Below are positions 10,629-20,275 of a stretch of DNA of 64,000 bases, piece after piece (position 1 is the first letter of the stretch; the number at the start of each line of letters is the position of its first letter). The stretch is from a candidate division KSB1 bacterium (GTDB lineage: Bacteria > Zhuqueibacterota > Zhuqueibacteria > Residuimicrobiales > Krinioviventaceae), in the NCBI GenBank assembly GCA_034521575.1, contig JAXHMJ010000002.1, positions 342,706 to 406,705 of the forward strand, read 5' to 3'. The notes beneath the pieces were generated by a model. That model did not search any database. It was not told the origin of the DNA and saw only the letters and a program-made list of their open reading frames with translations. A program made the translations under genes and the position numbers.

Positions 10629-10810
10629 GTGGCAGGTTTTAAGTGTTAAGGGGGGTGTGTGGTGTGTGGTTTGAGGTGCGGGGTTAAGGGGATAAAAAAT
10701 CGAGTCAGAACTCTATAAACGGCAAGGTCTCGTAAAGACAATTAAAAATCCAGTGCTATTCTTTGGTTTTCAATTGCTTTTTTTTTAGCAATCCAGGAAG
10801 CAAAGATCAA
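10629..10810. other. Intergenic stretch with a G-rich tract
   Basis: After the TolC stop, bases 10647-10692 on the + strand are almost only G and T with several GGG or GGGG runs, so a G-quadruplex could form in RNA or DNA. The rest, to 10810, leads into the repeat array. I see no gene and no clear terminator here. Confidence 0.4.
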
Positions 10811-11230
10811 GAAAAGCGCGAAAGACATTCCGGTTTTTTTTCCTTTGCGGCTTTGCGCCTCTGCGTGCATCTTTTTAAAAAACAATGCACGCAAAGCAGC
10901 AGAGATCGCCGAGAAAAGCGAAAAAGACATTCCGGTTTTCTTTTTCTCTCTTTGCGGCGTTGCGCCTCTGCGTGCATTTCTTTCAAGAACCAATGCACGC
11001 AAAGCAGCAAAGGTCGCCGAGAAAAGCGAAAAAGACATTCCGGTTTTTATTCCTCTGCGGCTTTGCGCCTCTGCGTGCATTGTTTCAAGAACCAATTCAC
11101 GCAAAGCAGCAAAGGTCGCCGAGAAAAGCGAAAAAGATATTCCGGTTTTCTTTTTCTTTCTTTGCGGCTTTGCGCCTCTGCGTGCATTTCTTTCAAGACC
11201 CAATTCACGCAAAGCAGCAAAGGTCGCTGA
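10811..11230 (+). repeat. Array A: four tandem copies of a ~105 bp repeat
   Basis: Copies begin near 10811, 10911, 11019 and 11121. Each carries GAGAAAAGCGAAAAAGA, then TTCCGGTTTT, a pyrimidine tract, TGCGCCTCTGCGTGCAT, and a spacer leading to AATGCACGCAAAGCAGC. The TGCGTGCATT and AATGCACGCA parts form an inverted repeat. The unit is the reverse complement of the units at 18.5-20.3 kb, so this is the same repeat family in the opposite orientation. Frames open on both strands here are by-products of the repeat, not genes. Confidence 0.9.
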
Positions 11231-11438
11231 GAAAAAGCGTTGGCCTCTATTTGACTATTTGTACGTTAGGCGTGTTTTTGGATTTCCCCGCTGCGACCTC
11301 TCGCCTCTGCGTGACATGTTTCGATACTCAATTCACACAACGCCAGGATAAAAAATAAACGATACAGTTTTCTCTTTGAATTATTTTGTATCTTAATTTC
11401 TGCGTTTAATATTTACCCATTCTGACCGTTATAGAGCC

Positions 11439-18473: not shown

Positions 18474-19515
18474 TTTTCTTTGCGACCTTTGCTTCTTTGC
18501 GTGCATTGGTTCTTGAAACAATGCACGCCGAGGCGCAACGCCGCAGAGGGAGAGAAAGAAAACCGGAATATCTTTTTCGCTTTTCTTTGCGACCTTTGTT
18601 TCTTTGCGTGAATTGGTTTTTAAAAAGATGCACGCCGAGGCGCAACGCCGCAGAGGGAGAGAAAGAAAACCGGAATATCTTTTTCGCTTTTCTCGGCGAC
18701 CTTTGCTTCTTTGCGTGAATTGGTTTTTAAAAAGATGCACGCCGAGGCGCAAAGCCGCAGAGGGAGAAAAAGAAAACCGGAATATCTTTTTTGCTTTTCT
18801 TTGCGACCTTTGCTTCTTTGCGTGAATTGGTTCTTGAAACAATGCACGCCGAGGCGCAACGCCGCAGAGAGAGAAAGAAGAAAACCGGAATATCTTTTTT
18901 GCTTTCTCAGCGACCTTTGCTTCTTTGCGTGAATTGGTTCTTAAACAATGCACGCAGAGGCGCAAAGCCGCAGAGGGAGAGAAAGAAAACCGGAATATCT
19001 TTTGCACTTTTCTCAGCGACCTTTGCTTCTTTGCGTGAATTGGTTTTTGAAACAATGCACGCCGAGGCGCAAAGCCGCAGAGAGAGAGAAAGAAAACCGG
19101 AATATCTTTTTCGCTTTTCTCGGCGACCTTTGCTTCTTTGCGTGAATTGGTTTTTAAAAAGATGCACGCCGAGGCGCAACGCCGCAGAGAAAGAAAACCG
19201 GAATATCTTTTGCACTTTTCTCAGCGACCTTTGCTGCTTTGCGTGAATTGGTTTTTGAAACAATGCACGCCGAGGCGCAAAGCCAGCAGAAAGAAGAAGA
19301 CCGGAATATCTTTTTTGCTTTTCTCGGCGACCTTTGCTTCTTTGCGTGAATTGGTTTTTAAAAAGATGCACGCCGAGGCGCAAAGCCGCAGAGGGAGAAA
19401 AAGAAAACCGGAATATCTTTTTCGCTTTTCTCGGCGACCTTTGCTTCTTTGCGTGAATTGGTTTTTAAAACAATGCACGCCGAGGCGCAAAGCCGCAGAG
19501 GGAAAAAATCCGAAT
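18474..19515 (-). repeat. Array B1: about ten ~105 bp repeats upstream of the GxxExxY gene
   Basis: The landmark GCGACCTTTG recurs near 18482, 18589, 18695, 18804, 18909, 19015, 19122, 19224, 19327 and 19432, a period of 102-109. Each unit reads CTTTGCGTGAATTGG, spacer, ATGCACGCCGAGGCGCAA, GCCGCAGAG, purine tract, ACCGGAATATCTTTT, CTTTTCTCGGCGACC. Copies differ by point changes and by small length changes in the purine tract. The unit is the reverse complement of array A. The many frames open here on both strands, 60-150 codons long, all translate the same repeat and are not genes. Confidence 0.93.
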
Positions 19516-19563
19516 ATATTTTTTGTTGTCTGTATTTTATTCATTAAAAGAGGGGAGGTTTCT

Positions 19564-19974
19564 ATGCTTTACGAAAATGAATTATCCTATCAGATCATTG
19601 GAGCGGCTATTGAGGTGCACCGGGAACTTGGACCGGGATTGTTGGAATCGGCGTATGAAGAGTGTCTGTGTTATGAATTAAAACAGCGAGGCATTGCCTT
19701 TCAAAGACAGTTGTTGCTGCCCATGAATTATAAAGATGCGGTGATCAAGGAAGGGATGTATCGACTGGACGTCATCGTTGAAGAGACGGTAGTCGTAGAT
19801 GTCAAATCCTGTGAACGGCTGCATCCTGTTTACAAAAAACAGGTATTCACCTATTTACAGCAAACCCGGACGAAGTTAGGTCTGTTGTTGAATTTCAATG
19901 TGCCGGTGATGCGGGATGGTATTGTGCGAGTGGTGCGAGGGTTGGAGGAAGAGGTGGAGGAGAATTTAAAATAA
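19564..19974 (+). CDS. GxxExxY protein, PD-(D/E)XK nuclease-like, embedded in repeats
   Basis: 136 residues. The family signature is clear near the start: IIGAAIEVHRELGPGLLESAYEECL contains G-x2-E-x2-Y type spacing. RLDVIVEETVVVDVKSC supplies the D...(D/E)xK arrangement of the PD-(D/E)XK nuclease fold, with Lys in VDVKS. It ends with the typical GLLLNFNVP. GGGGAGG lies 6 bases before the ATG. The gene sits inside the repeat array with ten copies before and three after it and no other gene between. Activity of this family is not established to my knowledge; repair, or mobilising its own repeats, are possible roles. Confidence 0.88.
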   Translation: MLYENELSYQIIGAAIEVHRELGPGLLESAYEECLCYELKQRGIAFQRQLLLPMNYKDAVIKEGMYRLDVIVEETVVVDVKSCERLHPVYKKQVFTYLQQTRTKLGLLLNFNVPVMRDGIVRVVRGLEEEVEENLK

Positions 19975-20275
19975 GGATTCGCAGAGAAAGAAGAAAACCG
20001 GGATATCTTTCGCGCTTTTCTCGGCGACCTTTGCGTCTTTGCGTGCATTGGTTTTTGAAACAATGCACGCCGAGGCGCAACGCCGCAGAGAAAGAAAACC
20101 GGGATATCTTTCGCGCTTTTCTCGGCGACCTTTGCGTCTTTGCGTGCATTGGTTTTTGAAACAATGCACGCCGAGGCGCAACGCCGCAGAGAAAGAAAAC
20201 CGGAATATCTTTTGCACTTTTCTCGGCGACCTTTGCTTCTTTGCGTGAATTGGTTTTTAAAAGATATACACGCAA
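19975..20275 (-). repeat. Array B2: three repeats downstream of the GxxExxY gene
   Basis: The same unit and orientation as array B1, with GCGACCTTTG near 20024, 20124 and 20225. These copies show the inverted repeat best: GCGTGCATTG and CAATGCACGC are perfect 10-base arms separated by 10 bases (for example 20040-20069). The array abuts the GxxExxY stop codon and ends just before the pgk terminator. Confidence 0.9.

Follow-up and report, generated by a model that had tools for sequence, protein, structure and literature searches.

Inverted arms around GxxExxY nuclease genes of bacteria and archaea suggest a very small mobile element

Genes of the GxxExxY family, which encode a PD-(D/E)XK nuclease, lie between inverted arms built of short tandem words, and it is near certain that gene and arms form one evolutionary unit. 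The layout, a word that changes with the branch of the protein, and the alternation of gene, bare arms and empty sites suggest a very small mobile element; i.e. the unit of gene and arms is probably mobile. The best explanation as a whole, which we hold to be reasonably likely, is a ~450-bp mobile unit whose nuclease would recognise the arms and support copying in trans, resembling REP sequences and their RAYT transposases with an unrelated nuclease. We know of no function that has been assigned to this very widespread family.

The gene that gave rise to the analysis lies in a stretch of 64,000 nucleotides from a candidate division KSB1 bacterium, the whole of which is referred to here as the window. 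Its relevant features are as follows, the two arms having been read in the sequence and the left-arm rule set over 138 loci.

18474-19512, plus strand: about ten tandem units before the gene, word CTTTGCG, period 101-112 bp
19471-19502, plus strand: CAATGCACGCCGAGGCGCAAAGCCGCAGAGGG, the left arm of the unit that carries the gene
~19552-19558: GGGGAGG, resembling a ribosome-binding site, before the gene
19564-19974, plus strand: GxxExxY gene, 136 aa, PD-(D/E)XK nuclease with residues E28, D69, D79-x-K81 and Q93
20020-20050, plus strand: CTCGGCGACCTTTGCGTCTTTGCGTGCATTG, the right arm of that unit
19975-20275 (about), plus strand: two complete units past the gene, followed by a degraded third
10810-11234, minus strand: four reversed gene-less units
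11288-11343, minus strand: degenerate fifth reversed unit

The ~105-bp repeats that the preliminary description had placed around the gene are thus borne out, about ten before it and about three after, as are the reversed gene-less copies at 10.8-11.2 kb, to which the degenerate fifth is added. The perfect inverted repeat that had been ascribed to every unit, GCGTGCATTG with CAATGCACGC, is confined to 3 of the 13 units (at 18499, 20041 and 20142), the majority reading GCGTGAATTG, and this palindrome is the junction at which the outer ends of adjacent units meet; it does not mark the centre of the unit that bears the gene. A search of Rfam gave no match, and on the downstream side of pgk, the single gene by which the locus was anchored, no comparable array is seen in 16 relatives of the order.

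With one repeat unit as query the 5.26-Mb genome of the bacterium yields 37 matches, 17 of them in the two window arrays, together with a 40-bp fragment beside the gene; the remaining 19 are short and lie elsewhere, three of them surrounding a second GxxExxY fragment. The gene is not the lone one that it had been taken for: the genome has five GxxExxY loci, all with repeats of like architecture and differing words. One of these, a fragment close to the window gene, is flanked by the window repeat, and the other three, one of which is frameshifted, have the words CTTCGTG and CTCTGTG and an unrelated type, GTTCGTTGCT. A frameshifted gene of this genome (L004/L005, C5:692375-692714) is accompanied by repeats with the very different word GTTCGTTGCTGAAAATCAGGAGCAACGAAC. 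Solitary copies of the repeat have their arms in right-left order in this genome and in left-right order in Flavobacterium.

The window's phylum carries the family in 73 of 82 genomes, with as many as 22 copies per genome. Lack of a statistical link between gene family and repeat across genomes had been named at the outset as the finding that would speak against a relation between them, and such a link is strongly present. When the 200 bp upstream of a gene are matched against the 200 bp downstream, an inverted-flank score of at least 20 is reached in this phylum by 36 of 58 distinct GxxExxY genes and by 1 of 139 other genes in the same loci that have intergenic flanks (Fisher 5e-23); the background is 5% when flanks of different loci are paired and 0.2% at randomly chosen positions. 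The word CTYYGYG was written down after 29 loci, and 80 further loci from more than 20 bacterial and archaeal phyla were fetched afterwards, these being the best-scoring 80 of 582 candidates; the locus search used a tight family alignment. In this prospective set 60 of 78 GxxExxY genes score at least 18, as against 6 of 165 other genes, and CTYYGYG occurs no farther than 150 bp from the gene at 78 of the 80 loci, on one side or both (on both at 65), compared with 4 of 61 in a far control at 1.25-1.4 kb. Over 138 genes the word in its expected orientation is dense close to the gene, at 22 per kb in the nearest 50 bp, and has fallen to ~0.5 per kb at distances above 600 bp. Double-word arms stand on both sides of 24 of 96 GxxExxY ORFs and of 2 of 1126 others, and these two exceptions are a GxxExxY gene missed by the pattern and a nuclease-like ORF adjoining a GxxExxY gene. 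The linkage holds for a class of repeats with a common word pattern and not for the particular ~105-bp sequence of the window. At L116:716-1181 a left and a right arm enclose an ORF with a nuclease-like ExK pattern, and a GxxExxY gene follows immediately.

The arms are inverted copies of two to four tandem words, most often three; the gene-bearing unit has a median length of ~454 bp, and its two outer ends are symmetric and read approximately TTnACC. In 20 solitary copies inspected by eye no target-site duplication is seen, the TTAA ends being palindromic. A tree of 138 proteins comprises a canonical clade of 113 and a second clade of 25 that was sampled in the window's phylum only. Inverted flanks are found in the second clade as well (score of at least 18 in 80% vs 6% in the far control), but with another word, often one that differs by a single letter: CTYYGYG accompanies 110 of 113 canonical genes and 1 of 25 second-clade genes, and ATYYGYG, a pattern formed after the second-clade arms had been read, accompanies 13 of 25 second-clade and 6 of 113 canonical genes. 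Scored by dominant word, the canonical clade has 110 genes with C and none with A, and the second clade 13 with A, none with C and 12 without an assignment. Among canonical genes the sub-type of the word tracks the protein only above ~65% identity, i.e. among close relatives, so that plain linkage could also give this finer correspondence.

Within a genus, repeats and gene occur together. Among 121 Flavobacterium genomes, kinship being ignored, there are 0.58 repeats per Mb in the 23 without the gene and 7.8 in the 98 with it, a ~13-fold lower density in the gene-less genomes; five or more matches are found in 2 of the 23 and in 74 of the 98. A partial rank correlation of 0.35, likewise with kinship ignored, is left after removal of the measured own arms (0.67 per gene), and the correlation is gone when two own-arm matches are removed per gene. 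In the window's phylum the correlation of gene number with repeat number is weak (0.17 per Mb). One 85% complete genome, G065, has 234 CTYYGYG double-word matches, and no GxxExxY gene was found in it.

Different states are met at one and the same site, the spacer from hemW to the following gene, which was read in 90 Flavobacterium genomes. It holds the GxxExxY gene in 18, a class set by motif search without a one-by-one check, and among the gene-less classes, which were assigned by eye, it holds left-right hairpins with like arms in 24, repeats of the ATCCGCG type in 14, a GIY-YIG gene in 4, and in 9 nothing but 36-57 bp of spacer. The other 21 genomes are in different states or were left unscored. 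On a weakly resolved hemW tree, which gives no direction, a minimum of 16 changes between the states gene, hairpin and empty is required (shuffled mean 21). Three species of one fully supported clade have a hairpin (L216), an empty spacer (L197) and the gene (L243). The GIY-YIG-like gene (L194, L221, L235 and L265; 94 aa), so read from its translation MEKGFTYIL..LYVG, is flanked by another palindrome, TTTCAGGATCT before it and GATGCTGAAA..TTCAGCATAA after it; this may perhaps be a parallel system built on another nuclease.

The strongest rival explanation, to which we give a minor though real chance, is that replication slippage or another enzyme spreads the hairpins, and that the GxxExxY gene has settled in them as a passenger or homing gene, whose nuclease would cut hairpins only to copy its own gene into the loop and would have no part in their spread. 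Such a division of labour would suit the excess of repeat matches over genes, the genome G065 and the presence of a GIY-YIG gene with its own palindrome in the same Flavobacterium spacer, but it accords poorly with the few repeats of the gene-less Flavobacterium genomes, with a word that differs by protein clade, and with the finding that hardly any other gene family lies between such arms. It is improbable that gene and flanks are simply passed on together, by vertical descent and by gene transfer, and that the arms are ordinary regulatory or terminator hairpins of the gene in a unit that does not move: many gene-less copies occur within the same genomes, presence, absence and hairpin-only states are found at one site, and the word is common to archaea and bacteria, where neutral flanks would not keep one, although the position of the arms near start and stop and the tracking of protein similarity by word sub-type are what this explanation would give.

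The protein itself is a clear member of its family, scoring 141.4 bits against TIGR04256 (curated cut-off 35) and 138.1 bits against PF13366 (PDDEXK_3; cut-off 22), the latter being the only domain found in it; no DDE, HUH, serine or tyrosine transposase domain was detected. Residues G23, G25, E28, Y31, D69, K81 and Q93 are invariant, the complete motif of GxGxxExxY, D, [ED]xK and QxxxY is present in 127 of 138 proteins, and an HUH-like HxH motif is present in 1 of 138 only. The predicted model (pLDDT 92.5) has as its best Foldseek matches Cas4 SSO0001 and alkaline and lambda exonucleases, with weak E-values of 5e-3 at best, and a sequence search against solved structures gave no close one. 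With Cas4, RecB and lambda exonuclease the protein has in common the PD-(D/E)XK core, QxxxY and a similar predicted fold, and it differs from them in being a lone domain of 120-140 residues. Copies at the Flavobacterium hemW site have a median dN/dS of 0.076, a rough value with synonymous sites near saturation; the protein is under purifying selection and has thus been kept functional. That GxxExxY is a defence or housekeeping nuclease whose arms are a self-marking signal, in the way that restriction or exonuclease systems use sites, with repeats that protect or regulate and do not move, is the least probable of the rival explanations. The Cas4/lambda-exonuclease-like fold with its QxxxY motif and the strong purifying selection would suit it; against it speak the presence of as many as 22 copies in a genome, the symmetry of the terminal arms with their similar outer ends, and searches that gave no phage matches and few plasmid matches.

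Among known systems the closest in layout are the REP/RAYT elements (REPtrons), in which a small gene lies in inverted palindromic repeats, gene-less intergenic copies and clusters occur, and the repeat tracks the protein (PMC2817692). The likeness drawn in the preliminary description is upheld as far as layout is concerned, including gene-less copies, arrays and empty sites: the GxxExxY unit too has its gene in inverted palindromic repeats, with many gene-less intergenic copies and clusters. However, RAYT is an HUH tyrosine transposase of the IS200/IS605 family, whereas GxxExxY is a PD-(D/E)XK nuclease without the HUH motif; the REP repeat has a GTAG head, whereas the arms are tandem 7-bp CTYYGYG words that lack GTAG and end in approximately TTnACC; and the GxxExxY link, unlike that of REP and RAYT, spans archaea and bacteria. 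Because the HUH transposase is absent, the unit is one that would work alike but is no member of REP/RAYT (PMC2817692, PMC3733652). It also resembles MITEs and the TIRYT elements (TIRtrons), in which a gene lies between terminal inverted repeats and gene-less derivatives exist (PMC3733652), but their chemistry is of the tyrosine or DDE type, in contrast to a hydrolytic nuclease fold for which no target duplication is seen. Of the features that define a classical TIR transposon or IS, terminal inverted repeats are present and a known transposase domain is absent.

A different comparison is with free-standing homing endonucleases, small nuclease genes sited where their products would cut. Here too a small nuclease gene lies in its would-be target, and the GIY-YIG gene of Flavobacterium is similarly placed; the candidate target is, however, a palindrome present in many copies rather than a single conserved gene, and gene-less hairpins are abundant.

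From the linkage, the clade-specific word and the within-genus co-occurrence we infer that the protein spreads the repeat; on the same grounds the nuclease probably acts on its own arms by binding and cutting them. In the favoured explanation of a mobile unit, the ~450 bp that move would consist of left arm, nuclease gene and right arm. The RecB/Cas4/lambda-exonuclease-like PD-(D/E)XK enzyme would most likely recognise the arms, which would probably take the form of a hairpin or cruciform, and would cut at them, and host repair or replication would then copy the unit, or a gene-less arm pair, into new intergenic places. The solitary hairpins would thus be non-autonomous derivatives moved in trans. 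The mode of action might be that of REP with RAYT or that of a homing nuclease living in the loop of a repeated palindrome, and homing-like copying into hairpins appears to be the best fit for a pure nuclease. To our knowledge a PD-(D/E)XK nuclease alone does not transpose DNA, and this counts against the mobile-unit reading. The wider proposal is accordingly put more tentatively, as a possibility that we would not yet favour: a class of minimal mobile elements in bacteria and archaea whose only enzyme is Cas4/lambda-exonuclease-like, and which would recognise CTYYGYG or ATYYGYG hairpins according to clade and spread both itself and gene-less hairpins.

Short palindromic repeats such as these are common, and most of them lack an explanation. 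If the proposal is true, it would account for a large share of those short intergenic palindromes to which no mover has been assigned, and if the nuclease does move hairpins, this would be a type of mobile element without any known transposase. The clade-specific word makes function directly testable, as each protein predicts its DNA partner and a one-letter negative control. Literature searches by family name or accession gave passing mentions only and by repeat letters unrelated matches only, and no report of the gene-repeat link was found in a search outside which subscription journals mostly lay.

Some single loci are of additional interest. On a Sphingomonas plasmid record (L188) a GxxExxY gene lies between fabD and fabG, with CGCGAAG as its left arm; a right arm is not evident. 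Two genomes (loci L002 and L041) appear by eye to have a GxxExxY gene at the same place, between the genes of an efflux membrane-fusion protein and an RND transporter. In genome G096 a second inverted motif, CCCGATAGCTATCGGGA, stands beside or within some of the solitary hairpins (L300, L302, L304 and L312).
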